Below are positions 16-34,371 of a DNA stretch of 34,773 nucleotides, piece after piece. The notes below the pieces were generated by a model. That model was not told where the DNA came from and made no database searches. It saw only the letters and a program-made list of their open reading frames with translations. Every line of letters begins with the position of its first letter. The stretch's first letter is position 1. Both the position numbers and the translations under genes were made by a program. Source of the stretch: Fidelibacterota bacterium (GTDB lineage Bacteria; Fidelibacterota; Marinisomatia; SCGC-AAA003-L08; D37C17); assembly GCA_002707645.1 (NCBI GenBank), contig PANN01000002.1:37863-72635 (forward strand). Direction: 5' to 3'.

Positions 16-1203
16 ATGATATTTAAACTATTTATAACTATATATTTGACTTGTTCAGTTATTTTAGCCCATGGTGAAGATCATAATCATAATGATAATC
101 ATAAGCATAAAGAGCAAAAGTATGAACCTATTGGTATTGTAAGGGGCAGTGTCATTGACAATATGCTTGAAGATCCAAAAGCTTATGCGAATATATCAAT
201 TGTCAAAGAAAATTCTGATGACATTATTTCAGGTGGAATAACAGATGAAAGTGGGTTGTTTTTAATAGATAAAGTTCCGTTTGGTAAATATTTTTTAGTT
301 GTTCAATACATCGGATATGAAGATATGATCATAGATAGCCTGATAATTAAACCTCCAGATAAAATAGAATTAGATTTAGGGCAAATCAGAATTAATGCTA
401 GAACAATTATGTTAGAAGGAGTCTCTGTAGTAGATAAGTTGGCTCCAGTAATAGAAGATATTGCAAAAACAACCTATCCTGTAGCTGAAACTGCAAGAGC
501 TGAAGGTGGATCGGCAGATGAAATTTTAGAAAAATTACCTTCAATAACAGTAGATGCTGATGGTAATATTTCTCTTAGAGGAAATTCTAATGTAACAATT
601 TTGATAGATGGTAGAAAATCACAATTAAGTGTAGATATGATAAACGCAAACATGATTGAAAAAGTTGAGGTGATGACAACACCATCTGCAAAGTTTGATC
701 CAGATGGTATGGCTGGTATCATTAATATTGTTCTAAGTAAAAATGAATTTGTAGGAAGAAGTGGGAATTTAAATTTAAATCTTTCAGAATGGAATGGAAA
801 AAATTTATCAGGAACATTTAATTCATTCAAAGATAAGTGGAATATATTCTCTAGCTACAGTATAAGTGAAAGGCAAAAGCAAGGGAGAGGGGAACGAAAT
901 ACATTGTATTATGATTTAGATAATAATATTACATCTAATACTAGTTCAAAAGAATTCTCTGAAAAGTATCCAGAAAAAAATAATTTAAAAGTTGGAATTG
1001 AACACTACCCTAGTGATATAGGGCTATTAGCTTTTGATCTTACTTATATTGAGAGTAAAGGATTAGATACCAATACAGTTATTATAGATGATGATTTAGA
1101 AAATCCATTTGAAACAATTGAAAATGAAGAAAGTAGCGCGCTTAATTATGGAATTGGATATTTTATAGATGATCAAGAAAATAAAAAAAAATTTCTCTAT
1201 TGA
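16..1203 (+). CDS. TonB-dependent-receptor-like outer membrane protein, N-terminal part (frameshifted)
   Basis: N-terminal half of an outer membrane beta-barrel receptor. Residues 1-18 form a signal peptide ending in VILA. A His-rich stretch follows directly (HGEDHNHNDNHKHK). Residues about 38-110 look like a carboxypeptidase-regulatory-like beta-sandwich (GIVRGSV, then TDESGLFLIDKVPFGKY). A plug domain spans about 150-245, with EILEKLPSITVDADGNISLR, ILIDGRKS and SAKFDPDGMAGIINI, typical of TonB-dependent or OMP_b-brl_3 family receptors. The barrel starts near 255. The frame ends at a TGA just after nine consecutive A residues (1183-1191). The barrel continues in the +1 frame in the next ORF, so the two form one gene of about 860 codons if one A is removed. 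The His-rich stretch could bind metal, but the substrate cannot be read from sequence. No Shine-Dalgarno is visible before ATG 16. Confidence 0.85.
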   Translation: MIFKLFITIYLTCSVILAHGEDHNHNDNHKHKEQKYEPIGIVRGSVIDNMLEDPKAYANISIVKENSDDIISGGITDESGLFLIDKVPFGKYFLVVQYIGYEDMIIDSLIIKPPDKIELDLGQIRINARTIMLEGVSVVDKLAPVIEDIAKTTYPVAETARAEGGSADEILEKLPSITVDADGNISLRGNSNVTILIDGRKSQLSVDMINANMIEKVEVMTTPSAKFDPDGMAGIINIVLSKNEFVGRSGNLNLNLSEWNGKNLSGTFNSFKDKWNIFSSYSISERQKQGRGERNTLYYDLDNNITSNTSSKEFSEKYPEKNNLKVGIEHYPSDIGLLAFDLTYIESKGLDTNTVIIDDDLENPFETIENEESSALNYGIGYFIDDQENKKKFLY

Positions 1204-2593
1204 ATTTGATTATGATAATCATGATGGATCTGAAGTAAGGACAGGGTATACTGATGAAGTGGTTCAAGATGAAGGAATAGATAAAATATTTAGAATAGAT
1301 TATACTGCCCCAATAGAAAATAAATTTAATAAAGATTCAAAATATGAGATTGGTTTTAAACAAGATAAAGGAGATGATAAACATTATTCTATAATAGAAA
1401 ATGAAAATTTTAACTGGAACTACGATAACTCAATCTACGCAGCATATATAAATGTATTATATAATTTTACTGAAAAATTTGGGATGCAAGTTGGAGCACG
1501 TTTTGAAGATCAAGAAAAACAATCAGTTATTAATTTTGATGAATCAGATTGTTCTAGTTTAGATCAATTAAATTGTGAGCAAAGTGGTTTTTGTAGTTGG
1601 GATGATGGGATTTGCTCAGAAACATTGTTTGGTAATTTAATTAATAATCTTGGAGAAGATTTAGATGTTACTTACGAACATACTAGAGTTTATCCATCTA
1701 TATACTTTTTATATGATACACAAGGAAAAGGTAATTTTAAATTTGAGTTTGGAAGAAGAATAGAAAGACCATCACATTGGAGTTTAAATCCTATCCCAGA
1801 TTTAGAAGAGGCAGAAGCAGGATTTATTAGACAAGGGGATCCTTATTTAAGGCCTGAAGATATTTATAAATCTGAAATTAGCTATTCAAATAGGATTCCA
1901 ATAGGATTTTTAAAAGCATCATTATATTACTCAACAGTAAAAGATATGATTGATAGAGATAAAGATACATATTGTTATGGTTCAACATGTAATGATTCAA
2001 ATGACAATTCTGATCAAACGAATTATATGGTTTTATCTTGGGACAATGTTTCAGAATCAATTGATAGAGGGATAGATTTTACATTTATGACAAGACCTCT
2101 TCCAAATTGGGATATTATGATTAATGGAAATTATTGGAATAATATTTTAGATGGTGTTGAGGCTGATCAACAAGGAAATGAATATGGATTTTGGGGTATG
2201 ATTAATTCAACTATTAGATTACAAAATGATCAACAAATTGGTGCTTATTCACATTTCTCATCTCCGATGACTATATCATCTGGAGAAATAAAGGGTATGC
2301 GACGTTTTGATTTAACTTATAAGAAAAAAGTAAATAAGCGTTTTAATTTTACAGTAAAGCTTAAAGATGTATTTGATTCTGGTGGTTTTGATATTAAGAC
2401 AGATCAATTAATTGATTTAGATGGTGATAATATTTTTGATATTAGAGAGGTTTTGAATTCTGAATATAGAAGAGGTAAAAGGAATTTATCAGTAACTTTT
2501 GAATATCGTTTTGGAGATTTTCAAAAGAAAAAATATAAGCGTGAAAATCAAAGAGGCTATAATCAAAGTGGTGGAATGGACGTTGGATTCTAG
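1169..2593 (+). CDS. TonB-dependent-receptor-like outer membrane protein, C-terminal barrel (frameshifted)
   Basis: C-terminal barrel of the receptor that begins at position 16. The ATG at 1169 is probably not a real start. True coding most likely crosses from the upstream frame at the A9 run (1183-1191), giving ENKKNFSIEFDYDNH. Beta-barrel strands follow (KFGMQVGARFEDQ, VYPSIYFLYD, KFEFGRRIERPSHWSLNP), and the last strand is NLSVTFEYRFG before a charged tail ending in Phe. A Cys-rich insert (about 1540-1635, with four Cys and CSW) lies between two predicted strands, at the place where the family has an extracellular loop. A second Cys pair (YCYGSTC, near 1970-1990) sits in another loop. The MATE gene begins at its stop codon, overlapping by one base. 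Whether the break is a true mutation, slippage or an assembly error cannot be decided here. Confidence 0.82.
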   Translation: MIKKIKKNFSIEFDYDNHDGSEVRTGYTDEVVQDEGIDKIFRIDYTAPIENKFNKDSKYEIGFKQDKGDDKHYSIIENENFNWNYDNSIYAAYINVLYNFTEKFGMQVGARFEDQEKQSVINFDESDCSSLDQLNCEQSGFCSWDDGICSETLFGNLINNLGEDLDVTYEHTRVYPSIYFLYDTQGKGNFKFEFGRRIERPSHWSLNPIPDLEEAEAGFIRQGDPYLRPEDIYKSEISYSNRIPIGFLKASLYYSTVKDMIDRDKDTYCYGSTCNDSNDNSDQTNYMVLSWDNVSESIDRGIDFTFMTRPLPNWDIMINGNYWNNILDGVEADQQGNEYGFWGMINSTIRLQNDQQIGAYSHFSSPMTISSGEIKGMRRFDLTYKKKVNKRFNFTVKLKDVFDSGGFDIKTDQLIDLDGDNIFDIREVLNSEYRRGKRNLSVTFEYRFGDFQKKKYKRENQRGYNQSGGMDVGF

Positions 2594-9107: not shown

Positions 9108-10223
9108 ATGAATAGAATATTACCATTTATATTTATATCAATTTGCTTTTTTCAGGAAGAATGCCAAGATGAGCGTTATATTTCAGAAATATTTGATGTA
9201 GATATTATTTACGGAGTTCCATACGGTGAAAATATAAATCAAACTATTTTAGGATCAGAATATTTTGAAAGTTTATACATGGATATATATTTACCTGAAA
9301 ATGATTATTTCGATGAAAGACCCTTAATATTTTTTCTATTTGGAGGCTCTTTTGTAGGTGGCTCTAAATCCTCATCTGATATCGTTGCATTATGTACTAA
9401 TTATGCAAAAATGGGTTATGTTTCTGTTGCTATAGATTATAGACTATCTCAGCATTTATTACTTTTTAATGCTAATGAAGAAAATGCGTATAGAGCTGTA
9501 GTGAAAGCTATCCATGATTTAAAAGCAGCAATTAGATATTTTAAAATGAATGATGAATTATTTGATGATTATAAAATAGATGTAAACAGAGTTTATGCTG
9601 GTGGATATTCAGCTGGTGCAGTTACAGTTATTAATGCTGCTTATTTAAATGAATATGAAGAAGTTCCAGAATTTTTATATGATGATTATGATAGTATTGG
9701 AGGTTTAGATGGTTTGTCCGGTAATCCAGGGTATGACTCAAATTTTGATGGTATAGTTAATTTATCAGGAGCAGTTGGCAATAGAAATTGGATTGTAGAA
9801 AATGATATTCCAATTGTAAGTATGCATGGTGATTTAGATGATGTTGTTCCATATGATGATGATTTAATTACTTTATTTGGGTTGAATATGGCTGTAGATG
9901 GAAGTTTTATAATTCATGAAAGAATGATCGAACTTGGAAATTATAGTGCTTTACATACTTATCAAAATCAAGGACATTCACCTTATTCTAATATGAATTT
10001 TGAAACAGAGTATTCAAGTTCTTTTTTATATGAACTAGTATGTAATAATGATTTTTTAATAGGAGATTTAAATGGAGATTCTATAATTAATATAAGTGAT
10101 GTTGTTTTATTGATAAATATAATTTTATCTGCTAATTATTTAGAATCGGGAGATGTTAATAATGATGGGAACATAAATGTTCAAGATGTTATCATACTTA
10201 TTCAAGCGATATTAAATACCTAA
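9108..10223 (+). CDS. Secreted alpha/beta-hydrolase (esterase) with C-terminal dockerin
   Basis: Secreted hydrolase of 371 residues. A short signal peptide (1-16) leads into an alpha/beta-hydrolase resembling carboxylesterases and feruloyl or acetyl-xylan esterase-like enzymes. FFLFGGSFVGGS provides the oxyanion region, GGYSAGA the nucleophile (Ser168), HGDLDDVVP the acid (probably Asp244), and QGHSPY the His (His290). The C-terminal 50 residues form a two-loop dockerin type I-like module (GDLNGDSIINISDVVLLINI and GDVNNDGNINVQDVIILIQA). The substrate is probably an ester on an extracellular polymer, but this is inference. It ends with a 4-bp convergent overlap with the VOC gene. No cohesin partner is visible in the window. 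Confidence 0.88.
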   Translation: MNRILPFIFISICFFQEECQDERYISEIFDVDIIYGVPYGENINQTILGSEYFESLYMDIYLPENDYFDERPLIFFLFGGSFVGGSKSSSDIVALCTNYAKMGYVSVAIDYRLSQHLLLFNANEENAYRAVVKAIHDLKAAIRYFKMNDELFDDYKIDVNRVYAGGYSAGAVTVINAAYLNEYEEVPEFLYDDYDSIGGLDGLSGNPGYDSNFDGIVNLSGAVGNRNWIVENDIPIVSMHGDLDDVVPYDDDLITLFGLNMAVDGSFIIHERMIELGNYSALHTYQNQGHSPYSNMNFETEYSSSFLYELVCNNDFLIGDLNGDSIINISDVVLLINIILSANYLESGDVNNDGNINVQDVIILIQAILNT

Positions 10224-10650: not shown

Positions 10651-11382
10651 TTAATTATCGACAACATTTATAAAACCATTTTCAGAACTTTCAGTATCTG
10701 ATTCATAATAATATTGATAACCTGATGGATTTTGAAAACCTATAAAATAATATTGTGATTGAGATGTTTGCCCAGTCCCAGCTGGTATAGTAACTTCAAA
10801 TTCATCCCAGTTTTGATTGTATGATAAGGGAGTATCCCAAATACATCCTTCATTTATTTGCTCACATAATTCTAAAGATTCATATGAAGAGCAATCATTA
10901 TTATTAAAAATTGAGTCTTGATTTTTAATACAACCAGGTTGTGAACTATTAATAGTTTTAATAGTGATTTCATGATTTGAATTATTTAGCCAATATATTG
11001 GAACATTAATATTCGTTTGATGCAGACTTGGATCAAAACCATTTTCATCAGAGTAGATAATAAATATATTTGAATATACGCAGCAATTGTCACATTCAAT
11101 TGTAGCTTCATCATTATAATTAATTGCAAGATTACTCATACATCCAGTACACGATGAATTATTTCCAAAACAAACATCACAACTATCTTTTGATAGGTTC
11201 CAATCACATTCATCTAAATCACAATCACAAGATTCATTGCATTGGGTACATTGGCCGCATTCATCTTCAAATAAATCATAATCAGCGCAATCAATAGGCT
11301 CAGTTAAATTATCCTGGCATGAAAAAAATAAACACAGAAATACAAATAGAGTATATTTATTTAAATTTAATAGATGTTTCAT
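10651..11382 (-). CDS. Cys-rich lipoprotein with possible degenerate cupredoxin-like domain
   Basis: Protein of 243 residues, not recognised as a named family. The N-terminus has a lipoprotein signal with lipobox FFSC (Cys22). Residues about 31-105 are Cys-rich, with CGQC, CDVCFGNNSSCTGC and AINYNDEATIECDNCCVY, related to the D-C-x-G/C-x-N-S-T-C repeats in the SprA N-terminus of this window. The C-terminal part (about 106-243) resembles a cupredoxin-like beta-sandwich (FDPSLHQTNINVPIYWLNNS, then HEITIKT). The region where blue copper proteins carry Cys, His and Met reads YYYESDTESSENGF, so the copper site would be lost. A CIWD-bearing Cys module interrupts this domain (about 10835-10945). The start overlaps the upstream hydrolase by 26 bp. 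Confidence 0.75.
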   Translation of the reverse strand: MKHLLNLNKYTLFVFLCLFFSCQDNLTEPIDCADYDLFEDECGQCTQCNESCDCDLDECDWNLSKDSCDVCFGNNSSCTGCMSNLAINYNDEATIECDNCCVYSNIFIIYSDENGFDPSLHQTNINVPIYWLNNSNHEITIKTINSSQPGCIKNQDSIFNNNDCSSYESLELCEQINEGCIWDTPLSYNQNWDEFEVTIPAGTGQTSQSQYYFIGFQNPSGYQYYYESDTESSENGFINVVDN

Positions 11383-16992: not shown

Positions 16993-18140
16993 TATCTGAT
17001 TACAAAAAAATATTTTTTAATAAATTTAAAACTTACCCTGATATCATTAGCATTGCGCCAGGGAGAGTGAATATTATTGGAGAACATACTGATTATAATT
17101 TTGGTTTAGCAATCCCTACAGCTATTAATAAATGGATTATTACAATGATATCAGATAGGAATGATAATCAATTTAATATTCATTCAGTTAATTATGATAA
17201 AATGATATCGTTTTCATTTAACGATTTAACAAAATCTGATGAGCTCTGGGAGAAGTACATAAAGTCAACTATTTATATTGTAAATAAAAAATATAAATTA
17301 AATAATGGGTTTGATATGTTGATAGGAGGAAATATTCCTATTGGTTTTGGTATGTCAAGTTCTGCTGCATTAGAAGTCTCCATTGTTTCGGCTATATTAG
17401 ATAAATATTGTGATAAATATGATCAGTATGAAATTTTAAAAATTTGCAATGTAGTTGAAAAAGAAATACTAGGTATTCAAAGTGGAATATTAGATCAGTA
17501 TGCTTCAATTTTTTCTAAAAATAAAAAATTTTTGCTGATCGATTTTAATAGTAATACTCATGAATATTTTGATTCAAATATTAAAAATTGTTCTTGGGTT
17601 TTAGTGAATAGTATGATTTCAAGAGATTTAGTTAGTTCAGATTATAATATTAGAGTTTTAGAATGTAATGAGGGATTAGATTTAATTAATAAATTAAAAA
17701 ATGAAAAAACATCTTTCAATAAATTATCATTAGATGATATAGAATTAGTAAAAAAAAACAAGAAGCTTTATTGCAGATTACTTCATTTTTATTACGAAAA
17801 CAAAAGAGTTAGAAGTATGAAAAAAGAAATCTCAAATGGAAATAAATATAATGTAGGACAGTTGCTTTTAGAATCTCATTTTAGTTTATCAAAAAGATAT
17901 GAAGTTAGTTGTAGAGAAATTGATACAATTATTTCCATGTCAAAAAAACATCCTGGTTTTTATGGTGGTCGAATCATGGGTGGAGGTTTTGGAGGATGTA
18001 CAATTAATTTAGTAGAGAATAATTTAAAAAAAGATTTTATTTCATATATAAAAAATGAGTTTTATAAAAAATTTGAATATAATATTAAAGTAGAAGAGGT
18101 TTTTTTTTCAGAAGGTCTTGATGTTTTAACAGATTTATAA
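16965..18140 (+). CDS. galK: Galactokinase
   Basis: GHMP-family sugar kinase of 391 residues, normal for GalK. APGRVNIIGEHTDYNFG near residue 28 is the galactokinase signature. GNIPIGFGMSSSAALEVS near residue 120 is the ATP-binding loop. SGILDQYAS holds the catalytic Asp177. GGRIMGGGFGGCTINLV near residue 330 is the C-terminal GHMP motif. It phosphorylates galactose, or possibly N-acetylgalactosamine in a salvage variant, at C1. The start ATG is inside the preceding gene (28-bp overlap) and the stop TAA shares one base with the next ATG, so it is embedded in the coupled operon. No galE or galT accompanies it in the window. Confidence 0.93.
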   Translation: MDRITKDKLVSDYKKIFFNKFKTYPDIISIAPGRVNIIGEHTDYNFGLAIPTAINKWIITMISDRNDNQFNIHSVNYDKMISFSFNDLTKSDELWEKYIKSTIYIVNKKYKLNNGFDMLIGGNIPIGFGMSSSAALEVSIVSAILDKYCDKYDQYEILKICNVVEKEILGIQSGILDQYASIFSKNKKFLLIDFNSNTHEYFDSNIKNCSWVLVNSMISRDLVSSDYNIRVLECNEGLDLINKLKNEKTSFNKLSLDDIELVKKNKKLYCRLLHFYYENKRVRSMKKEISNGNKYNVGQLLLESHFSLSKRYEVSCREIDTIISMSKKHPGFYGGRIMGGGFGGCTINLVENNLKKDFISYIKNEFYKKFEYNIKVEEVFFSEGLDVLTDL

Positions 18141-19585
18141 TGATAAAGTTTACGAACTTTATTAAGTTACGAATGATGATAAATATAAAAAAAATAATAG
18201 TATTAATTTTGTGTGGATTAATTTTTGCAGAATCTAAACAGATTTATGCAACAATTCAGATGATGGATCAGGTAATGATTTTGGACGCAGAAAATTTAGA
18301 AATTAGCCAAAGTATAAATACTGATTTTATGGAAGATTCACAGTGTCCAAATTTAAATAATGAAAATGATTGTTTACTCTCCAGTAGTTGTGAGTGGATG
18401 ATGGGTGAATGCATGGAAAGTATGTTAGGAGGTCTTGATGTACCTCATTTTGTTACTCTAGATGAATTAAATGGATATTGGTTTATTACTGCAATAGCAT
18501 CTGGTTTTATTGCTCAATATTCTTTACTTGATAATACATTTATAGACTCTTACTTTGTTGGTGATGCACCAGCATTAATTGCAATTGATTCTATAAATCA
18601 AGTTATATATTGCACAACTGTTGGAATGATGTTTATGGACAGTATGAACGGTATGATGCCTAGCTTAGAGTCAAATACTATCCAAGTATTAAATTATTCA
18701 CCAATAGGATTATCTCAATCAATAAATCAAGAATATATTATTGATTCTACAGCACCTCATGGTATAGCTATTAATGAAGATGGAACAGAAATATATACGG
18801 CAAGTAATACAGCTGATTGGATTTATAAAATAAATACTCAAAATGGTGAGATATTAGGGGTTCCTATGGATCAGAATGTAAATAACACGCCTGATTTAAT
18901 AATGCAAAGATTAAAACCAATACAATGTTTATCTACAGGTAATAGATTATTTATCAGTTGTTCTGCTGGCAATTGGATTAATCCTTCTACACAAGAAACA
19001 ACAGTAATTGAAGGAAAACTCCAAATGTGGAATTCAGATTCAATGGAGCTTATTGATACAATAGATTTAGGTGAGTATTCATCACCATGGCATATTGTAA
19101 AATCCCCTTTAGATCAGATTATTTATGTTGTATTAGGAGGAAGCGACACCTACGAAACAGAAGGCCTTGCATCGATATCATATGAAAATGATAACCTTTC
19201 TATTAATTGGATAACAAATAATTCTTCTTTTGATACTTTACATGGTGTAGATGTTTCCGCAGATGGTCAAAAAATTTATGTATCTGGTAGAGGCGATGGA
19301 AATATTCATATTTTTGATTATAATGGAAATTATATTGAAAATATATTTTTAGGACAAATGACAATGCTTGGAGGGATAGCTGTAGAAAAAAAAGATTTAC
19401 CTATCATTGGAGATATTAATAATGATTTAAATATAAATATTTCAGATATTATAAATTTGGTAGATATAGTTTTATATCCAACGATGTCTCATCCATATCA
19501 AGTTTATGCCTCAGATTTTAATCAAAATGAGTCAATTAATATTTTTGATATAATATTGTTAGTTGAAAATATTTTATCAAATTAA
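18140..19585 (+). CDS. Secreted beta-propeller (YVTN-like) protein with dockerin
   Basis: Exported protein of 481 residues from the first ATG; starts at 18173 or 18176 (MMINIKKIIVLILCGLIFAE) would give a more normal signal peptide. The central part (about 35-400) has repeated blades of the YVTN/lactonase-like propeller type, for example HGIAINEDGTEIYTASNTAD and GVDVSADGQKIYVSGRGDG. A Cys module near 18332-18415 (four Cys with CEW) interrupts the first blades. The C-terminal 60 residues are a dockerin type I-like pair (GDINNDLNINISDIINLVDI, then SDFNQNESINIFDIILLVEN). It follows galK by a TAATG overlap and precedes PhoX by another. The function is unknown: propellers of this sort bind or scaffold rather than show obvious catalysis. 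Confidence 0.78.
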   Translation: MIKFTNFIKLRMMINIKKIIVLILCGLIFAESKQIYATIQMMDQVMILDAENLEISQSINTDFMEDSQCPNLNNENDCLLSSSCEWMMGECMESMLGGLDVPHFVTLDELNGYWFITAIASGFIAQYSLLDNTFIDSYFVGDAPALIAIDSINQVIYCTTVGMMFMDSMNGMMPSLESNTIQVLNYSPIGLSQSINQEYIIDSTAPHGIAINEDGTEIYTASNTADWIYKINTQNGEILGVPMDQNVNNTPDLIMQRLKPIQCLSTGNRLFISCSAGNWINPSTQETTVIEGKLQMWNSDSMELIDTIDLGEYSSPWHIVKSPLDQIIYVVLGGSDTYETEGLASISYENDNLSINWITNNSSFDTLHGVDVSADGQKIYVSGRGDGNIHIFDYNGNYIENIFLGQMTMLGGIAVEKKDLPIIGDINNDLNINISDIINLVDIVLYPTMSHPYQVYASDFNQNESINIFDIILLVENILSN

Positions 19586-23293: not shown

Positions 23294-26200
23294 GTGAATT
23301 ATATATATTCAATAAACTATTTAAAGGTAATTTTTTATCTTTGCACTGCCTCTTTTTTTAATTTTTTAGAAGCAGAACAGGAGATTAACGCTTCATATTA
23401 TGATAATTGTGGTATATATGATAATAATCCACAGAATGATTGCGTTCAAGATTGTTCTGGAATTTGGGGAGGTGATTCTATATTTGATGAATGTGGAGTT
23501 TGTGGTGGTAATGGAAAGAGAGATAACGAAAATTGTGATGGAGAATGCATTGTTCAAATAGATTGTTTTGGGATTTGTGGAGGATTAGCACGTTTAGATG
23601 ATTGTGGAAAGTGCGATGAAGATTTTTTAAATGACTGCAAAAAATCTTATTTTGATAATTGTGGAAATTTTGATGATAATCCCGATAATGATTGTGTCAA
23701 AGATTGTTCAGGGATTTGGGGTGGATTAAATATATTTGATGATTGTGGAATTTGTGGAGGAAATAATTCAACATGTGGAGATTGTTCCGGTGTAGCATAC
23801 GGGAATGCCTACTATGATAATTGTAATGTATGTGACAATATACCTGAAAACGACTGCAGTAAAGACTGCAAAGGTATTTGGGGTGGTGAAAATAAGGTAG
23901 ATAATTGTGGAGTTTGTGAAGGAAATAATTCAACATGTGCAGATTGCATGGGAAACATAAATGGTAGCGCTTATTATGATAGTTGTAATATTTGTGATGA
24001 TAATCCTGAAAATGACTGTGTAAAAGATTGTAATGGTGAATGGGGAGGTAAATCACTCATCGATGAATGTGGAAAGTGTGAAGGAAATGGTATCCCTGAT
24101 GGGTATTGTGATTGCGATTTAAATACTTTTGATTGTATGGGAATATGTGGTGGCGAACACTTAGAAGAGGACTGTTTTTTAGAGGATAATCCTTCTTTAT
24201 CATCGAATATTGATATTGATTTTGTAGATGATATATATTTTTCAAGAACAATTAACTACTATGTATTTATAAAAAATGTATTTGATCCATTCTATAAAGA
24301 AATTAAAGGATTAACATTTGCATCAAAATATAGGCCTAGTTCTTATCATGGATTAAATTTTACAAAAGAACTCAGAAAATTAAGTAAAAAAACTGAGCTA
24401 GGCTCTAATGGAACAACAATTATATCTTCTTTAAAGTACAATGAAAATGATATTCTTCAGCCTTCTATATCTACCGTTGATTATTACAAATCTAGAATCA
24501 TTAATAATAATCACTATGAAAAAATGCAACAATTAGCATTTAACAAAATTAGTCCAAATATAAAAAATTCTAGAAATTCAAAAAAACTTACATTGGTCAG
24601 TCAAGATATAGGAGAGACAAATGTTGCTATTAATTTAAGCGGTCAAATAGAAATTAGGGGCGAATTAGAATTTACGGATACTCAAAGTAGTTCATTGAGT
24701 AATCAAAATAATGAATCTTGGAATTTAGACATTGATCAAAAACAACGTTTTGATTTAGAGGGTCGAGTTGGAGATAGATTAACTATTAGTGCCGATCAAA
24801 ACTCAGAATCAGATTTTGATTTTGAAAATTCACTTTTGTTAGAGTACAAAGGTTTTGATAATGAAATTATAAATAATATTCAAGCTGGTAACATTGGTAT
24901 TAGTCTTAGCGAAGGAACTTTATTTAGTGTAGGTATGGGTAAAAGAGCAGGTGTATTTGGTGTGAAGATGAGTAGTCAGCTTGGACCAATTGAATTGAAT
25001 ACAATTATTGGTAGAGAAAAAGTTAAAAAAGAATCTTTTTCTTTAGGAAATCAATCTGAAGGTTTAGATAGATATGATTACCAATTTATAAAAGATAAAT
25101 ATTTTTTTATTGATAAAATTTTTAAAAATAATTTTTATCCTTTAAATGAAGACTATATTAATCAAATTGGTTCAAATGAATATGTTATTAAAGATTTTAA
25201 ATTATATAAACGAGCTCAAACAAATGAAATTGAAACAGATATTTATGAAGGAATTGCTTATATTGATCCCTTAAATAAAGATATTGGAACTCCTGAAAAT
25301 AATATATGGATTGAACTTGAAGATCAGTATTCTGGAAATGATTACTATATAAATAAGTATTATGGATATGTTAGATTAAATTCAATATCAACAAGTGATT
25401 TAATTGCGGTGCACTATACAATAGGGGATTTAAATAATGATGGAACTATTCTTGAATCTTCTAATCCTATTCAAACAGGAACAGACTATCTTATTCAAGA
25501 TCGATGCTTATTATCAGGTCAAAATGAATGTGATGAGAATACTATTAACGGGTGTTCTGAGATAGAGGCTTCAACCTTAGAAGTTTGTAATGAGGAAAAT
25601 AATCTAAATTGTTGTAATTATATTGAATATAATGACGTATTTGGCTTTTCTGCTGATCCTTTAATTTTAAAAATTATAAAAACTGAAGGACAACAAGAAC
25701 CTCCAAGTCCTGATAATCCAAATGGAAATCCAACATGGGATTTAATGATGAAAAATGTATATGATATAGGATTGTCAAATTTTAGTCAAGGAGATGAACC
25801 ACCAGAAGTTGAGGTTGTTCATATTGGTGGTCAATTAGGTACCGAGACAGCTAGTTCAAATGGAAATACATTCTTAAGAATTTTTGGTATAGATAATAAG
25901 GATTCTCAAGGTTTTTTCATATCTAATGGAGACGGAAAAGTAGATAGTTATTTTATTAATAGCTGGGGAGATCTATTCTTACCATTTGATATGCCTTTTG
26001 CATACGACCCGGAAGCATACTTAGGTAATCCACATTTAGATTTAGCGAATATATTTGATGGTGATTTAGAAAATATAAACATTGAAAACTTAACAACTAT
26101 AAGAAAAAATGGTGATGCCGGACCAGAATTTACTCTTTACAGGTATGAAAATGGACCTGCAATGTATTTTAGTAGTAATGAAACAACAAAATCATCAGAA

Positions 26201-29200
26201 AAAGAATTTGTTATAAAAGTAAAGAATGTAAATCAAAATACAACAATAAATCTTGGCTTCATGATAGTTGATGGAAGTGAAACATTGACCGATGGTTCAA
26301 CTCAGCTAATTAAAGGAGTAGACTATTCTGTTGATTACTTTACGGGAACATTAACTTTAATTTCGGATAGAGCTAAAAATAATTCTCAAACTTTGAGGAT
26401 TTCTTATGATAGAAATGAGATTGTATCATTTGATCAAAAATTAATTTTTGGAAATTCATTTAAGTATGAGATAAATAATAAAAGCAATTTATTTGGAGGA
26501 TTATACTTTTATAAGCAATCAATAACTGATAATAAGGTTGAGATTGGTTATGAGCCTATGGAAAATATGATTTGGCATCTTGGTGGAAAATATTCAAAAG
26601 AATTATTAAATTTAAATAATTCAATAAATAATAGAGGATTAGTTAATTTAGAAAAACCTTCTGAATTTAGCTTTTCAAGTGAGGTAGCACAAATATTCCC
26701 TAATCCAAATCCTATTGGGATTGCTTATATAGATGATTTTGAATCATCCAAGAGATATTCAACTATGCCAATTTTAAATTCTGCTTGGCAAGAATCAGCT
26801 CCACCCTTTAAAATAAAAAACTTTGATTGTCTAAGTGCATTAACTGAATCTGATTGCATAGAAATAGATGAATGCGAAATTAATTATAATGAATATAATG
26901 ATTTTTTAAGTTGTGATATTGTTTTAGAAAAGTACGATATTTATAAAAGAGAAAATTTATTTTGGTACAATCCTTATAATGATATTCCAACAGAACTTAT
27001 ATGGCCTGATAAAGAAGTTGAAGATGCTTCTAAGGAACAAACACTTTGGTTGGAAATACCGGAAGATAAAATTGGAGGTAATAGTGATAACCCTGATGAT
27101 AATAGATGGTGGAATGGTATAACAGCTTCATTATATGCCTCTGACCAAAATCAATCAAACAATAAATATTTAGATATTTGGCTTAATTATGAAGGATTAG
27201 TAGGTTTTGAAAATCACTATAATGGTCTTCCAGAAAATCCAGTTTTAGTTAATAGAAATAATCTTAAGCTTAATATTGATATTGGTATGATTAGTGAAGA
27301 TACAAATGATAATGGTGTTTTAGACACAGAAGATTTGGTTCCAGAATCACTTATGATCATGGGTGATGGTTTATTGGATGCGGGAGAAGACAAGGGCATG
27401 GATGCCTGTATAAATGAATATGAAAATGGTTGGGGAGGATGTCTTTGTTCTGAATTTAATCATGGTACTAATAATGATAATACCTATAATAGCTGTATTG
27501 ATACAGAGCAACTTACTTTTTCACAAATCAAATCTGAAATTTTGAGTGGTAATTCAAGTTTTAATAATGTTATTAATATAAATGTAAACTCGAATGATCC
27601 AAATAATGATGACTTTAGTTATACTTCTGCAAGTTACGATTTTAGTAACTATAATGGAACAGAGAACAATGGTGCAATTATAGAAAATAAATATCCAGAT
27701 TCTGAAGATTTAAATGGCGATCAGTTTATTGATGATATTAATTCATACTATTCTTATACAATAGATTTAGATATGGATAATGATGATATTATTCAAAGTG
27801 AAATATTATCAACAAATTGGAAACTTTTTAGGATTCCATTAAATGATTTTATTGCAATTAATGAAACCTCTGGCTATAATGCTGATTGGACAAATGTAAA
27901 AAATATTAGGCTATGGATTGAAGGTCAATATGCAGAAAATGATACTTATGGATTACTTGGAATTGCTTCAATTGAGATTGTAGGAAATGAGTGGGAAGAA
28001 CTAGGTATAGTTGATAATGAAGATATTGGCCAAGTTGGATATTTAGAATCAGAATTTACTCCTAATGAAAATGTAAGTATCCAATTAATAAATAATCAAG
28101 AAAACTCTGATATATATACACCTCCAGACGGGGTATCAGGAAGTAATCAGAATTTTGGAACAGGGGGACTTGGTAGCTTAATAGTAGATAAAGAACAATC
28201 ACTGGTAATTGATTTTTCTAATGGTTCAGATAATAATGGTGGAATTAATTTAGATAGTACGGCATTTATTAAGAAAAATGTTAGTTATTCATCGTTGGAC
28301 GCTGAGAAACAAAATAGTTTCTTTGTATATAAAAATTTAGAAATGTATTTTAATGGAAATGAATCAAGTGTTGGTCAAGATTGGTATGAGGAGTGCAATG
28401 GATCAGATAGTGAAGAATGTACAAATGTTGAGTTATGTTTTAGATTTGGTAAAGATGAAAATTATTATGAAATAAGAAAACCATTTAAATCTATTGAAAA
28501 TGAAGAAGTATTAGATCCAAATGGGTGGCAAAATTTAAAAATAAATTTAGATGAATTGACAAGATATAAATTAAATAGACAAAATTTAGAATCTTATATC
28601 GATGATGGAATTGATAATTGTGACGACTTATATGAAACTGGAATAATTAATTCTTTAACAAACCTTCCTGGTTGTCTTAATGAGGAAATAATTGAGTTAG
28701 GAATTACAACATCTAAAATTTGTGATGAAATATCTGGACTATCAGTATTTAATGAAGAACAGTTAAACTATTGCAATGAAAATGACTGTTTGAATTTTAT
28801 AAGTAGTGAAATATGTATTGATGAGAACTATGACGAATTAGGCGTTTATAATCCATATATTCTTGATCCTAACGGTGATAATTATTCTGTTCCTGGTTTA
28901 GAGTGTTGTGATTCAAATATTGATAGTCCAGATTTCTGTATTCCAGATACAAATAATGTTGATAATCCAAATTATTATTGTCCCGATTTATCTGATAATT
29001 TTTATTTAGCAACAGAAGGTAATAATCAGTATGATTGTATTGATGAAAACAATGAATCTTGTAGTGAAGATGATATCACTATTTATGGTGAATATGTGAT
29101 TGATGATTGGGATCAAAACAACTTATATACAATACCAGCATCATACATTCCAGAAGATCAGGTTTGGTCTTGGAAGGATTACTGTCAAACTAATGATAAT

Positions 29201-31594
29201 TTGAATTCTGAAGAATGTGATGATTGGACAACGGTTGATATAAGTACTGTTTGTGAAGATTGCAGTGAATTGAGAGTCAAGGGAGAACCAGCTATTAATA
29301 AAATGGAATATATTATGGTTGGTATTAAAAATAATGCTCCTGGAACAATTTTTGGAAGTGTTTGGATTAATGAACTGAGAATGACAGGTGTGAAAAGACA
29401 AAAAGGAACAGCATTTACAACAAACTTTAAATTCAACTTAAGTGATATTTTTAATATTGATTTAGATTTTAAAAGTGAAGAAGCTGATTTCCATCGCTTA
29501 GAGCAACGATTAGGCTCAGGTGATCATTCCATTAATTATTCTATAAATTTTGGTTTTTCTCCTCATGAACTATTTAAAGAAAATTATTTTCAAATGCCGC
29601 TTAATATTAAGTATTCTAAAGGCCTATATTCTCCTTTATATAAGCCTGGTTCAGATATTATTCTAGGTGGTTTTAGTGAAACTCCTAATGAATTAAAAAA
29701 TATTAATAATTCAATTACTTTAAGTACATCATTAAATACAATGTTAACAGATTATGCTCCTGGGAATTTATTTTTCAAGCACTTTTTAGATAATTCAAAA
29801 TTAACTTATTCCTATAAATGGAATCAATCATCTAATACAACAATTTTAAATAAAGAATCTGTATTGCAAAATATTAATTATGATTATTCTTTGACATTTA
29901 GCAGAGATAATAAATGGTACCCATTTAAAGGTATATTCAATGATAATACAGAAAACACTGATAATAAAAAATACTTTGCTAACTTTTTAAAAGATTTAAA
30001 TTTTTATTATACTCCTCAAAATATAAATTTTAATTCATCTTTTGTAGATTCAGATAATTATACTATTCAAAGAGATTTGTATGGAGGTATTGTTACTGAT
30101 GAAAAAAACATTGATTTAAATAGAAGCTTTTCTTCAAATATTAATATATTTGATAACCTAGCATTTCAATACTCTGCTAATATGAAAAATAATTTAAATG
30201 ATTACTTTTCAAATAATACAGCTTTAAAAATTTCAGATTTTTTTGATTTATCTTTTTCGCCAGGTATTAAAAAAAGCTATAATCAACAATTATCATTTAC
30301 ATATACTCCTGAATATCTTAAGTGGCTTGGACCCCGTTTCAATTATGTCCCAACCTATAATTGGGTTAGAGATGCTGTAAGCGGGGAATCTTCAACAGCT
30401 GACATATCAAGTGATAATAGATTCTCAGTTTCATTTACACTTTCATTTACTCAGTTTATTGAGCAATTTTACGAATCAGATAAAAAAACATCAGGTAGTT
30501 CATCTAGATCAACTAGTAGAAGGCGTTCTTCTACTTCTTCAAATAGCTCGAATTCAAACCAAATATATATTATCAAACAACCTCATTTTAAAACTATTTT
30601 AAAATTTTTACATGAAATAGGACAAAGATTTTCCAGTATAAATATTAATTATTCATACAATACTACGAACAAATACAATAATATCTCAACAGATATCAAC
30701 CCAAATTATAAATTTAAGTTAGGTATTATTGATAGACCAATTGAAGGTAGTCTTTTTGCAGGTTCAGATGGAATAATTATATCATCATCCAACACTTTTA
30801 ATCAAGAATTAAAGTTTAGTACTTCAATTCAATTAAGTCCAAATTTAACATTATCTAATATTGAATACAGAGTATCTTTGTCTGCTAATAACCAAAGTGA
30901 TAGTGGCTATAATGAAACACAATCTGAATCATATTTCCCTTTAGGAGCATCAGGTAAAAATGGATTTCCAATATTTGGTTGGTCTGTTAATTTAAGAGGT
31001 CTAGAAAAGTATGATTTATTAAGTAATTGGTTTAAAAGTTTTAGTATGAGTCATACCTTTAATGGAGAAAAAAATAAAATCAGTCAAGATTTTATTGTTC
31101 AAAAACTTGATTATAAGAGAAATTTTGCTCCTTTATTGAGATTTGATATGACGACTAAAAAAATACCTTTAGATATAGATTTAACACTTAATAATACTTT
31201 AAATATTACAAATGAAGGTGGTCAAATTGAACGAACAACTAATAATCAAGTTAGTTTAACTTTTGGATATAGAAAAAAAACAGGTTTTAATATGCCTGTA
31301 TTTTTTCTAAGAGATTTTCAAGTTGAAAATGAAGTTAATTTAAGTTTAAAGATAGGTTATGATAATAGTAATACCGAGTTCTCATATTTTGAGACTAATA
31401 ATCTAAATCAATTTGAAGTTATTGCATATAGTAATTCATATAATTTACAGCCTAAAGTTACATATAATTTTAGTAAATTTGTTGAGGGGGATTTGTGGTT
31501 TAATTATATAGTTTCAGATAATCATACCTCTGGTAGAAAAAAAGAAACAGATATAGGATTTCAAGTTAGAATATATTTTGAATCCTTTGATTAA
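23294..31594 (+). CDS. sprA: SprA/Sov-type T9SS outer membrane translocon with Cys-rich N-terminal domain
   Basis: A 2766-residue protein of the SprA/Sov family, the very large beta-barrel channel of the type IX secretion system. The GTG start comes just before a signal peptide (about 1-27, ending FNFLEA). Residues 35-294 are Cys-rich repeats, which are unusual for SprA. The family core begins near residue 430: GQIEIRGELEF, FDLEGRVGDRLTISADQ, then SDFDFENSLLLEYKGFDNEI and IQAGNIGISL. IAYIDDFESSKRYS (near residue 1145) and LNIDIGMISEDTNDNGVLDT are also SprA hallmarks. The C-terminal barrel has LSFTYTPEYLKWLGPRFNY and ends FQVRIYFESFD. Cys-rich inserts occur near 25500-25630, 26825-26930, 27400-27500 and 28390-29270, and a Ser/Arg-rich linker near 30480-30560. 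It is followed at once by QC, cargo and PorV-like genes. Confidence 0.9.
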   Translation: MNYIYSINYLKVIFYLCTASFFNFLEAEQEINASYYDNCGIYDNNPQNDCVQDCSGIWGGDSIFDECGVCGGNGKRDNENCDGECIVQIDCFGICGGLARLDDCGKCDEDFLNDCKKSYFDNCGNFDDNPDNDCVKDCSGIWGGLNIFDDCGICGGNNSTCGDCSGVAYGNAYYDNCNVCDNIPENDCSKDCKGIWGGENKVDNCGVCEGNNSTCADCMGNINGSAYYDSCNICDDNPENDCVKDCNGEWGGKSLIDECGKCEGNGIPDGYCDCDLNTFDCMGICGGEHLEEDCFLEDNPSLSSNIDIDFVDDIYFSRTINYYVFIKNVFDPFYKEIKGLTFASKYRPSSYHGLNFTKELRKLSKKTELGSNGTTIISSLKYNENDILQPSISTVDYYKSRIINNNHYEKMQQLAFNKISPNIKNSRNSKKLTLVSQDIGETNVAINLSGQIEIRGELEFTDTQSSSLSNQNNESWNLDIDQKQRFDLEGRVGDRLTISADQNSESDFDFENSLLLEYKGFDNEIINNIQAGNIGISLSEGTLFSVGMGKRAGVFGVKMSSQLGPIELNTIIGREKVKKESFSLGNQSEGLDRYDYQFIKDKYFFIDKIFKNNFYPLNEDYINQIGSNEYVIKDFKLYKRAQTNEIETDIYEGIAYIDPLNKDIGTPENNIWIELEDQYSGNDYYINKYYGYVRLNSISTSDLIAVHYTIGDLNNDGTILESSNPIQTGTDYLIQDRCLLSGQNECDENTINGCSEIEASTLEVCNEENNLNCCNYIEYNDVFGFSADPLILKIIKTEGQQEPPSPDNPNGNPTWDLMMKNVYDIGLSNFSQGDEPPEVEVVHIGGQLGTETASSNGNTFLRIFGIDNKDSQGFFISNGDGKVDSYFINSWGDLFLPFDMPFAYDPEAYLGNPHLDLANIFDGDLENINIENLTTIRKNGDAGPEFTLYRYENGPAMYFSSNETTKSSEKEFVIKVKNVNQNTTINLGFMIVDGSETLTDGSTQLIKGVDYSVDYFTGTLTLISDRAKNNSQTLRISYDRNEIVSFDQKLIFGNSFKYEINNKSNLFGGLYFYKQSITDNKVEIGYEPMENMIWHLGGKYSKELLNLNNSINNRGLVNLEKPSEFSFSSEVAQIFPNPNPIGIAYIDDFESSKRYSTMPILNSAWQESAPPFKIKNFDCLSALTESDCIEIDECEINYNEYNDFLSCDIVLEKYDIYKRENLFWYNPYNDIPTELIWPDKEVEDASKEQTLWLEIPEDKIGGNSDNPDDNRWWNGITASLYASDQNQSNNKYLDIWLNYEGLVGFENHYNGLPENPVLVNRNNLKLNIDIGMISEDTNDNGVLDTEDLVPESLMIMGDGLLDAGEDKGMDACINEYENGWGGCLCSEFNHGTNNDNTYNSCIDTEQLTFSQIKSEILSGNSSFNNVININVNSNDPNNDDFSYTSASYDFSNYNGTENNGAIIENKYPDSEDLNGDQFIDDINSYYSYTIDLDMDNDDIIQSEILSTNWKLFRIPLNDFIAINETSGYNADWTNVKNIRLWIEGQYAENDTYGLLGIASIEIVGNEWEELGIVDNEDIGQVGYLESEFTPNENVSIQLINNQENSDIYTPPDGVSGSNQNFGTGGLGSLIVDKEQSLVIDFSNGSDNNGGINLDSTAFIKKNVSYSSLDAEKQNSFFVYKNLEMYFNGNESSVGQDWYEECNGSDSEECTNVELCFRFGKDENYYEIRKPFKSIENEEVLDPNGWQNLKINLDELTRYKLNRQNLESYIDDGIDNCDDLYETGIINSLTNLPGCLNEEIIELGITTSKICDEISGLSVFNEEQLNYCNENDCLNFISSEICIDENYDELGVYNPYILDPNGDNYSVPGLECCDSNIDSPDFCIPDTNNVDNPNYYCPDLSDNFYLATEGNNQYDCIDENNESCSEDDITIYGEYVIDDWDQNNLYTIPASYIPEDQVWSWKDYCQTNDNLNSEECDDWTTVDISTVCEDCSELRVKGEPAINKMEYIMVGIKNNAPGTIFGSVWINELRMTGVKRQKGTAFTTNFKFNLSDIFNIDLDFKSEEADFHRLEQRLGSGDHSINYSINFGFSPHELFKENYFQMPLNIKYSKGLYSPLYKPGSDIILGGFSETPNELKNINNSITLSTSLNTMLTDYAPGNLFFKHFLDNSKLTYSYKWNQSSNTTILNKESVLQNINYDYSLTFSRDNKWYPFKGIFNDNTENTDNKKYFANFLKDLNFYYTPQNINFNSSFVDSDNYTIQRDLYGGIVTDEKNIDLNRSFSSNINIFDNLAFQYSANMKNNLNDYFSNNTALKISDFFDLSFSPGIKKSYNQQLSFTYTPEYLKWLGPRFNYVPTYNWVRDAVSGESSTADISSDNRFSVSFTLSFTQFIEQFYESDKKTSGSSSRSTSRRRSSTSSNSSNSNQIYIIKQPHFKTILKFLHEIGQRFSSININYSYNTTNKYNNISTDINPNYKFKLGIIDRPIEGSLFAGSDGIIISSSNTFNQELKFSTSIQLSPNLTLSNIEYRVSLSANNQSDSGYNETQSESYFPLGASGKNGFPIFGWSVNLRGLEKYDLLSNWFKSFSMSHTFNGEKNKISQDFIVQKLDYKRNFAPLLRFDMTTKKIPLDIDLTLNNTLNITNEGGQIERTTNNQVSLTFGYRKKTGFNMPVFFLRDFQVENEVNLSLKIGYDNSNTEFSYFETNNLNQFEVIAYSNSYNLQPKVTYNFSKFVEGDLWFNYIVSDNHTSGRKKETDIGFQVRIYFESFD
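23396..24175 (+). repeat. Cys-rich repeat domain in the SprA N-terminus
   Basis: Codons 35-294 of sprA encode degenerate tandem repeats. One full unit reads roughly YYDNC-x3-D-x-xPENDC-x-KDC-x-G-x-WGG, then D-x-CG-x-C-x-G-NNSTC-x-DC-x-G. The DC-x-G-x-WGG element appears four times and the CG-x-C-x-G-N/G element about six times. Conservation is at the protein level and only partly at the DNA level. Similar DC-x-G-x-WGG repeats occur in surface proteins of marine bacteria; their fold and ligand are unknown, but spaced Cys, Asp and Asn suggest disulfides or metal/Ca binding. Confidence 0.88.
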
Positions 31595-31598
31595 GTTT

Positions 31599-32498
31599 AT
31601 GATAAGACTCTTTTACATATTATTTTTTGCTATTATTCAGGCTCAACAGATTCCATTATTTGATGGTGATATTGCATTTAGCTATCTTAAGAAACAATGT
31701 GACTTTGGGGAAAGATATCCTGGAAGTCAAAATCATATTGATCTTAAAAATTATTTAGTTAGTTTTTTATCGGATAAATCAGATGAATTGATTGTCTATG
31801 ATCATGAAATAAATCATCCATATAATAAAAATGAAAAAATCATTTTATACAATATCTTAGCAAGATACAATTTAGATTCACAAAATAGAATTTTGTTAAT
31901 GGCTCATTGGGACACAAGAGAAATAGCAGATAAAGATTCAAATAAAATGAATCAAGCAAAACCGATAATAGGTGCCAATGATGGTGCAAGTGGGATATCA
32001 ATATTAATGCATTTGTCAGAAATATTTTCTAGCTATCCTTTCAATAATATTGGAGTAGATTTACTATTTGTTGATGGTGAAGACATGGGCAGGCACGGTG
32101 ATTTAGAGAATTTTTCAATAGGAACTAAACTATTTTCAAAAACGATGTCAAAACCAATTCCTAAATTAGCTATTTGCCTTGATATGGTTGCTGATAAAGA
32201 TCCAGAATTTAAAATTGAATATTTTTCATATATACAAGCTGAAAAAGATGTTTTAGAATTATGGGATTTAGCAAATTCATTAGGTTATAGCGAATTTGTA
32301 TATGAGCTTTCACAGCCAATTTATGATGATCATAGAGCTTTGTTTGTTGAAACAGGTATACCATCTCTCGATATTATTGATTTTGATTATCCTTATTGGC
32401 ATACTCTAGAAGATACTGTTGATAAATGTTCTCCATACACATTGGGTATTGTGGGTACTCTTGTTTGTGAATATTTATATAGGAAAGAGCATGATTAG
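31599..32498 (+). CDS. Glutaminyl-peptide cyclotransferase (M28-type glutaminyl cyclase)
   Basis: Zn-dependent glutaminyl cyclase of the M28 fold, 299 residues from ATG 31599. I prefer this start because the upstream TTG at 31578 overlaps sprA, while ATG 31599 begins the signal peptide (MIRLFYILFFAIIQA) 4 bp after the sprA stop. MAHWDTRE, GANDGASG (Asp128), LLFVDGED (Glu161) and DYPYWHTLEDTVD (His268) supply the metal ligands and the active site. The enzyme turns N-terminal Gln of exported proteins into pyroglutamate. Its own predicted cleavage site (QA, then QQIPLF) leaves Gln at the N-terminus, matching the Q-rule reported in Bacteroidetes. Its place next to sprA suggests it modifies periplasmic or T9SS client proteins. 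Confidence 0.9.
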   Translation: MIRLFYILFFAIIQAQQIPLFDGDIAFSYLKKQCDFGERYPGSQNHIDLKNYLVSFLSDKSDELIVYDHEINHPYNKNEKIILYNILARYNLDSQNRILLMAHWDTREIADKDSNKMNQAKPIIGANDGASGISILMHLSEIFSSYPFNNIGVDLLFVDGEDMGRHGDLENFSIGTKLFSKTMSKPIPKLAICLDMVADKDPEFKIEYFSYIQAEKDVLELWDLANSLGYSEFVYELSQPIYDDHRALFVETGIPSLDIIDFDYPYWHTLEDTVDKCSPYTLGIVGTLVCEYLYRKEHD

Positions 32499-34371
32499 TA
32501 CAAAATGGTATATATTATTTATTTTTATATCTCTATCTTTTAGTAAATATTTAACAGATTACAAAGTTGATAACGTAGAATCAAATTTTGAATATCGAAA
32601 TAGAGAATTAACTAATGGTTTATCAAGTCAATCAATAGTTGATTTAAGGATATTAAACAATCAATCTATTATTATTGGAACATCTGGTGGATTAGGATTA
32701 CTTGATAGCAATATGAATTTTTATAGCTTTAATGATGATAGATTGCCTGATGGTGGAAATCCTGCTTTGGAGGTGTATGAAAATGAGAATTTAATTATTG
32801 TTTCAGGTGTTGAAACTGTTAATTTTTTAAATGAAGATGTTTCAAGTGGAACTGGAATTTCTTGGTCAACTGATAACGGAACCTCATGGAAATATATGCC
32901 CCAGCCTCAAGATATACTTCCTGTATGTGAAGAATTGACATGTGATAACCCTCTAAATTCTCCCGAAGAATGCGATTGTTCTCCTGCTGCCTCAGGCTGT
33001 TCATGGGATGTTCCTTCACAAACATGCAGTCAAGTGGGTAATAATATTGTAGTTAGCTGGGGAGGTCAAAATCTATCAAGCTTGGCGATTCAAACCTCAG
33101 CAAAAAATGTTACGTATGACGTATCTGCTGATACTATTAATAAATATATATATACAGCAAATTGGGCTGGCATGTTAAGGAGATTTAAATATACTGATGA
33201 CAATCCAATTTGGGAAATTATCCCTTTACCAATGGATAACCAATTAACTGCAGATTGTGGCTCTTTCCCTTCAAGTTACGTATATAATCCAGTAGACCCA
33301 CAAATTAGTGGTAATTTGAATTATGGAGGAAATCATAATCATAAAGTATTTTCAGTTTATACAGAATTTTATGATGGCCAAATGTATATTTGGGCTGGGA
33401 CTGCAGATGGTGTAAATAAAGGAATAATAGATGATAATGGATGTATTGATTGGGTTCATTATACTTCCTTAGATGGTCTAGGGGGTAATTGGATTATAGA
33501 TATTATTCCTCAATATATAAATAATAGTGTAAATCCAAGAATATGGCTTGTTTCATGGGATAGAGAAGAGACGGCACCACATCCTAATTCTTTAACTTAT
33601 ACTGATGATAATGGTATTTCATGGATTACAGTAGATCAATTTAGTGAAGAGTTTATTGATTTAAATAATAATAATATTTACGACCAGGAAGATAGTTTTG
33701 ATGATTTTAATAATAATAATAATTATGATGGAGCTACTCCTTACAGTCTATATTTTTCTAGTGACGTTTTATATGCTTCAACAAATAGAGGTCTATTCTA
33801 TGCATCTATTGATAATGTTTTAAATTGGGAAAGACTAGAATTTCCAGATCAAATTTTGGATATTTTAGATTATAATCAAAATTCAGAAGCAGGAATTTTT
33901 ACACAGACTAAAGTATATACATCTTTGAATAGAAATCAGACATTTTTTATTGGAACACCTCAAGGTTTAATATGGGTCGAAGCAGAAAATAATATAAATA
34001 ATCCATATTTATGGAGTGAAGAAACATGGGATTCTTTCATAGCCTCAAATCAAAATATAGTGGATAAAAATAAATTACATATTTGGCCCAATCCATTTTT
34101 TATTGAAAATATTTACACTAACGTAGATTTTCAATTTAAAACAAATAATAACAGCGGTAAAATGAAAATTTATGACTTTTCGATGGATTTGGTGGACTCC
34201 TTTGATTGTGATAAAATAAATGATTATGGAAATTTAGAGTGCACGTGGGATGGAAGGAACAAGAATAATATTAAAGTAGCAAATGGAGTTTATTTTTGTA
34301 AGCTTAAAACAGGCAATACTGAAGTATGGGAAAAACTTATGGTTATTAATGCATCGAAGGGTCATTATTAA
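32491..34371 (+). CDS. T9SS-type exported protein with FlgD-like C-terminal sorting domain
   Basis: Exported protein of 626 residues from ATG 32491 (an upstream ATG at 32419 would only extend it into the cyclase gene and would displace the signal peptide, ILFIFISLSFSKYL). The bulk looks like a beta-propeller with blades such as VDLRILNNQSIIIGTSGGLG and YIWAGTADGVNKGI, resembling two-component-regulator-type propellers. A Cys module lies near 32920-33040 (seven Cys, CSWD). An Asp/Asn-rich EF-hand-like stretch is near 33655-33730. The C-terminal 95 residues match FlgD-like Ig/T9SS type A sorting domains: HIWPNPFF, MKIYDFSMDLV, CTWDGRNKNNIKVANGVYFC. It overlaps the cyclase gene by 8 bp and is a likely SprA client. 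Confidence 0.83.
   Translation: MISTKWYILFIFISLSFSKYLTDYKVDNVESNFEYRNRELTNGLSSQSIVDLRILNNQSIIIGTSGGLGLLDSNMNFYSFNDDRLPDGGNPALEVYENENLIIVSGVETVNFLNEDVSSGTGISWSTDNGTSWKYMPQPQDILPVCEELTCDNPLNSPEECDCSPAASGCSWDVPSQTCSQVGNNIVVSWGGQNLSSLAIQTSAKNVTYDVSADTINKYIYTANWAGMLRRFKYTDDNPIWEIIPLPMDNQLTADCGSFPSSYVYNPVDPQISGNLNYGGNHNHKVFSVYTEFYDGQMYIWAGTADGVNKGIIDDNGCIDWVHYTSLDGLGGNWIIDIIPQYINNSVNPRIWLVSWDREETAPHPNSLTYTDDNGISWITVDQFSEEFIDLNNNNIYDQEDSFDDFNNNNNYDGATPYSLYFSSDVLYASTNRGLFYASIDNVLNWERLEFPDQILDILDYNQNSEAGIFTQTKVYTSLNRNQTFFIGTPQGLIWVEAENNINNPYLWSEETWDSFIASNQNIVDKNKLHIWPNPFFIENIYTNVDFQFKTNNNSGKMKIYDFSMDLVDSFDCDKINDYGNLECTWDGRNKNNIKVANGVYFCKLKTGNTEVWEKLMVINASKGHY

Follow-up and report, generated by a model that had tools for sequence, protein, structure and literature searches.

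Cysteine-rich segments in exported proteins of the window

The window, i.e. the whole stretch of 34,773 nucleotides analysed here, contains genes for a TonB-type receptor, a lipoprotein, a beta-propeller, SprA and an exported protein with a sorting tail, here called the T9SS cargo (Table 1). A sequence-only reading had described the same compact Cys/Trp pattern in these five proteins, and the residues that it gave were confirmed at their positions for all five segments. The reading frame of the receptor is broken at a run of nine A (window 1169-1203), either by a sequencing error or by a real lesion; in relatives it is a single frame of ~860 residues.

Two further elements were observed in these genes. 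In the N-terminus of SprA (window 23294-24200), Cys repeats of the DxCGxCGG type extend over ~250 residues; they form a distinct Cys-rich element, and a similar region is found in the SprA of G006, a genome of another genus. A dockerin-like C-terminal segment, which may be a sorting or anchoring tail, is present on many exported proteins in this lineage (window ORFs 18140-19585, 9108-10223 and others; loci L021 and L162) and had many matches across relatives. The literature searched contained nothing of relevance to dockerins or Cys-rich proteins of Marinimicrobia.

Table 1. Host genes in the window and the cysteine-rich segments that they encode.
Feature	Position	Strand	Remarks
TonB-type receptor gene	16..2593	+	two ORFs, 16-1203 and 1169-2593
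Receptor module CSSLDQLNCEQSGFCSWDDGIC	1550..1615 (first to last Cys)	+	profile match; predicted extracellular loop
Lipoprotein gene	10651..11382	-	host of module variant
Lipoprotein module variant: upstream Cys, then CSSYESLELCEQINEGCIW, without fourth Cys	10837..10935	-	iE 4e-4
Lipoprotein, first Cys to Trp	10837..10893	-	
Exported beta-propeller gene, dockerin-like C-terminal segment	18140..19585	+	module host
Propeller module CPNLNNENDCLLSSSCEWMMGEC	18344..18412	+	inter-blade loop; profile match
sprA gene (PF14349)	23294..31594	+	host of doubtful Trp-less insert
SprA Trp-less four-Cys insertion CLSALTESDCIEIDECEINYNEYNDFLSC	26828..26914	+	genus-specific; pattern-only support
SprA, first Cys to EI	26828..26881	+	
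Exported protein with FlgD/T9SS sorting tail	32419..34371	+	half-module host
Cargo half-module with extra Cys CDNPLNSPEECDCSPAASGCSWDVPSQTC	32941..33027	+	genus-specific insertion
Cargo tail CSPAASGCSWDVPSQTC	32977..33027	+	

Recovery of three of the five segments as one family

The four-Cys, one-Trp segments appear to be copies of one clade-restricted, previously undescribed extracellular mini-domain of ~23-28 residues, hereafter the module. Its consensus is C-x2-(L/Y/I/F)-x(4-5)-C-x(4-6)-C-x-W-x(4-12)-C, with 7-8 residues between the first and second cysteines (C1 and C2), 4-7 (mostly 5) between C2 and C3, a C-x-W step, and 4-12 residues between the Trp and C4. Position C1+3 is hydrophobic, and the core contains four cysteines without a CC step.

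The pattern C.{4,12}C.{4,8}C.W.{3,12}C was counted in 1098 ORFs of the host genome (1.2 Mb, 79% complete), of which 1.19 of 1.20 Mb was covered, leaving out the tails of contigs C21 and C27 (~13 kb). It occurred 16 times, against a mean of 0.87 and a maximum of 4 in 30 composition shuffles. The majority of the matches were on two contigs, C8, to which the window belongs, and C19; the richest copies map to C19, outside the window, where a single protein can have as many as 6-7 modules in tandem.

A profile built solely from genomes outside the host genus was searched against the host genome and recovered ten copies at E <= 0.01, seven of them on other contigs, including the C19 copies. Within the window it matched the propeller (iE 2e-7), receptor (iE 0.007) and lipoprotein (Table 1) segments. 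Three control proteomes (full shuffle, Cys-fixed shuffle and reversed) produced zero matches even at 0.1, so the profile performed far better than expected for random Cys-rich sequence. The T9SS-cargo segment was not recovered, with an E of about 11 under the iterated profile, and the SprA segment was found with neither the leave-genus-out nor the iterated profile. When other hydrophobic residues were allowed in place of Trp, the pattern showed no genome-wide excess (7 vs 4.6 expected), while its occurrence within SprA proteins is improbable by chance.

On the basis of profile recovery and pattern statistics, three segments were counted as solid and two, those of the cargo and SprA, as doubtful relatives. 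The claim of a pattern shared by five proteins thus holds for the receptor, propeller and lipoprotein, the cargo having half of the motif and SprA no Trp. Cross-genus recovery above the controls indicates that the modules within the clade, with the exception of these two segments, belong to one family. Both doubtful segments fall in gaps of all homologues outside the genus, and some SprA and cargo homologues from other genera have other Cys-rich inserts at the same sites.

The lack of the last Cys in the lipoprotein, pointed out previously, was real and corresponds to a recurring variant, also found in a 1440-residue protein, in which an extra Cys lies 9-14 residues upstream. This upstream Cys is conserved in the lipoproteins of the congeners G003 and G002. 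The loss of C4 is accompanied by this extra Cys, which keeps the number of cysteines even and fits paired cysteines.

Insertion sites in the receptor and propeller

All four genus members (G000-G003) have the receptor module at the window's site. It is absent from this site in the G006 and G012 receptors, and the G010 receptor has a Trp-less Cys-rich insert there. The G006 receptor carries a module, CLYYDNEPSCTLDPKCEWKEDIC, in another loop, where other receptors have a short loop, and its four cysteines are the only ones in the protein. According to TonB-receptor topology, both insertion sites would be extracellular loops. The portability proposed for the module is thus seen in the receptor as the use of one loop in the host genus and a different loop in another genus.

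The propeller showed 0-4 modules at a single inter-blade site. Of 20 orthologues that could be aligned across both flanks, eight had no module, seven had a single one (including one that was poorly read), three had two, G005 had three and G006 had four, and the flanks 'DF' and 'NTPHF' were intact whatever the copy number. An AlphaFold model based on eight sequences kept the blades and placed the module between strands 54-60 and 102-108, with the module itself not resolved (residues 65-98, pLDDT below 50). These clean insertions, missing from homologues and varying in copy number or loop, indicate that the segments are not old family-specific parts of their hosts.

The nearest folds to the propeller were YVTN and BtuG-like surface propellers, and its named relatives were all Candidatus Neomarinimicrobiota MAGs. 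Apart from the module, features of the propeller include invariant His residues, stretches rich in Met (e.g. MMPMNGMNDMMP in relatives) and a weak likeness to lactonase-type nitrous-oxide reductase models.

Tandem duplication and proposed spread between genes

Tandem copies within one protein shared up to 97% DNA identity, and the array in G006 is a duplicated two-module unit (96% DNA identity between copies 1 and 3, 86% between copies 2 and 4). Between host families, DNA identity was at background, being 0.546 within the same genome and 0.542 between different genomes. No direct repeats flanked the module at the two sites checked, and inverted repeats there were weak. These observations suggest that the spread between genes was old, rare or blurred by divergence, and that copying from gene to gene is to be read from the insertion sites rather than seen in the DNA. 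The statement that the module has spread among surface proteins is consequently true on the time scale of the family, and DNA comparison revealed no recent gene-to-gene copying.

Background-level identity would also agree with convergence, in which exposed loops of this clade readily gain Cys pairs and the modules of different families are unrelated by descent; the shortness of the motif and the other Cys-rich inserts at the SprA and cargo sites of other genera point the same way. Nevertheless, the fixed spacing, the hydrophobic C1+3 and the C-x-W step argue for descent, as does the recovery of the receptor, lipoprotein and propeller copies by a profile from other genera that found nothing in the controls. 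We consider convergence unlikely.

Rickettsia palindromic elements are short in-frame insertions in unrelated genes. A mobile DNA element of this kind, with the peptide as a tolerated by-product, would explain in-frame insertions in unrelated genes as well as presence or absence between relatives. It was rejected given that host genes share no DNA repeat, the two sites have no direct and weak inverted repeats, and cross-gene similarity is not above background. In contrast to those elements, there is no DNA-level repeat family here, conservation falls on the Cys and Trp of the protein, and the hosts that were read look exported, which together make this origin highly improbable.

Composition and predicted structure

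Every complete module had a net charge of -2 or lower (mean -5.2). Lys+Arg amounted to 0.5% of module residues, compared with 6.3% in the remainder of the same Cys-poor hosts and 10.9% across the ORFs of the host genome. An AlphaFold model from 13 aligned modules (pLDDT 84.5) comprised a helix (11-16) and a beta-hairpin (strands 20-23 and 26-29), and a Foldseek search with the 32-residue module model returned no significant structural neighbour. We infer with fair confidence that the four cysteines form two disulfides and that the module folds independently; by analogy, the pairing would most likely be C1-C3 and C2-C4.

A DsbA-like oxidoreductase was present in three congeners. DsbB was not found in 24 genomes, and VKOR was not found in the host's family and was rejected as the oxidant. 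The missing DsbB and VKOR, together with the Met-rich propeller copies (MMGMCMES), would be compatible with four cysteines, plus Met in the propeller, that hold a metal such as Cu(I) and form no disulfides. This reading is quite improbable, since the receptor and hydrolase copies have no Met, there is no CxxC pair, the setting is exported and the compensating upstream Cys fits pairing.

In many relatives, the first catalytic position of DsbA-like Thioredoxin_4 proteins is an in-frame TGA, in the context TDFQ or MDFQ followed by [TGA]-P-[YH]-C. An internal TGA was seen in the DsbA-like proteins of ten relatives, four of which were read (L271-L274, in G001, G003, G010 and G008, respectively), and the codon probably specifies selenocysteine.

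Other hosts and distribution

The total census comprised 118 modules in 67 ORFs, which formed about 20 host clusters by masked BLAST. In 18 homologues of a PETase-like hydrolase, the module is located directly after the signal peptide and is usually followed by a Gly-rich linker. Modules also occur in FG-GAP and LRR proteins, in a dockerin-tailed protein of roughly 280 residues (281) that has two, and in a multi-module protein that has 5-7 along with acidic linkers. The N-termini of the hosts that were read look exported, except in cut ORFs or those with unclear starts; an automatic signal-peptide rule recognised 4/10 module ORFs of the host genome. PETase-like secreted hydrolases with an N-terminal module, a linker and a dockerin-like tail are common in this Neomarinimicrobiota family (L021:8012-9181 in G000:C19; homologues L224-L238 and L246-L248).

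A 30-module profile was used to scan 245 genomes of the phylum Neomarinimicrobiota at a cut-off of 1e-3. Twenty-two genomes were positive, including the host: 17 from the same family, four from elsewhere in the order and one from elsewhere in the class. Family f4, from the same order as the host, had the module in 0/10 genomes. By profile matching among these 245 genomes, the module is confined to one family and its near kin. The outlier G158, from another order, encodes a protein closely similar to the 281-residue host with two modules (L142, G158:C11), for which horizontal transfer or MAG contamination are possible explanations. No relative of the multi-module protein was found in plasmid and phage records.

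Possible role of the module

The module is a discrete, portable and clade-restricted unit of exported proteins. In our assessment it is probably an undescribed, disulfide-paired folding mini-domain that decorates exported proteins as a binding or contact knob and is duplicated in tandem at its sites. Two disulfides enclosing the conserved Trp and a core of helix plus hairpin would allow the unit to fold alone and to tolerate insertion. Three arrangements were observed: behind a signal peptide on a Gly-rich linker in the hydrolase, as arrays of 2-7 tandem modules, and as one or more copies within a loop of the propeller and TonB receptor, folds that are otherwise intact. Copy number at one site grows via tandem duplication. 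In the least certain step, exported proteins would be decorated with a rigid, strongly acidic and nearly Lys/Arg-free knob. Its putative role would be to position the host protein through binding or contact, as other Cys-rich extracellular repeats do, with cations, or basic or sugar-bearing partners, as ligands and resistance to trypsin-like proteases as a by-product. More tentatively, and with rather less than an even chance, the four-Cys/Trp modules could form a new family of independently folding mini-domains that originated in a single Neomarinimicrobiota lineage and acts as a general-purpose binding part, having entered loops of outer-membrane receptors and propellers repeatedly and independently. 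In that case they would be the bacterial equivalent of the small Cys-rich repeats of eukaryotic extracellular proteins.

The binding or contact role is itself proposed with low confidence, its main rival being passive armour: a disulfide-braced, Lys/Arg-free cap that shields loops and linkers from proteases or phage, spaces domains and binds nothing. The near absence of Lys+Arg, the insertion into exposed loops and the copy number of 0-4 among close relatives, expected of a dispensable part, are all consistent with such a cap. Moreover, coat formation in trypanosomes does not require the analogous four-Cys regions of the VSG C-terminal domains (PMC12226131). On the other hand, Trp conservation and an N-terminal location that is fixed across the 18 hydrolase homologues suggest more than filler, and protection does not need an acidic composition; passive armour is considered somewhat unlikely.

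Shuffling of small Cys-rich modules among surface proteins is commonly seen as a eukaryotic habit. The module is an instance of the same habit in a widespread lineage of uncultured marine bacteria; it ranks among the smallest such units, and its clean insertions include those into loops of outer-membrane proteins. The 0-to-4 series of the propeller and the two receptor loop sites offer natural experiments on the accommodation of a foreign module by a fold. The module could also help in annotating the exported proteins of SAR406 and might be of use as a tiny display scaffold.

Comparison with known cysteine-rich domains

Neither Pfam nor NCBIfam has a model covering the module, in agreement with the earlier remark that no named domain is known for it. 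The Trefoil (P-type, PF00088) domain has 6 Cys with an adjacent CC pair, and resembles the module in a C..C....C(C) step beside an aromatic residue. Weak Trefoil matches were obtained in 4/30 modules (best E 6e-4) and none in whole proteins; membership was rejected on account of the four cysteines, the core without CC and the sub-threshold matches.

A loose similarity to PSI/plexin had also been suggested, and persisted as a weak match of one 30-residue segment (best E 0.0056). Like the PSI/plexin repeat (PF01437), the module is small, extracellular, rich in Cys and marked by a C-x-W step, but it is about half as long and has 4 Cys. PSI has 8 Cys in four disulfides, as in RON (PMC3405059), a pattern that the module does not follow. 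Two whole proteins scored 15.1 and 14.8 bits (E 0.03-0.04), under the Pfam gathering cut-off of 23.1, and PSI membership was rejected on cysteine number and score.

The Paramecium surface antigen domain (PF01508) is comparable in its tandem arrays and matched two adjacent modules with an E of 0.0086; its membership was rejected at 16.9 bits against a gathering score of 21.2. It differs in being eukaryotic and in building whole proteins, and to our knowledge it has no loop insertions. Cys repeats recur periodically in the secreted surface antigens of Paramecium (PMC9788069). Among PDB entries, the best match by sequence, which was not significant (E 0.13), was a VSG C-terminal domain (PDB 2JWG). 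The C-terminal structured regions of T. brucei VSG share with the module four conserved Cys and a conserved aromatic residue within ~30 residues, but are eukaryotic and fixed at the C-terminus. Judged from these comparisons, the module seems to act like small Cys-rich extracellular modules, with membership rejected for the trefoil, PSI and Paramecium families.
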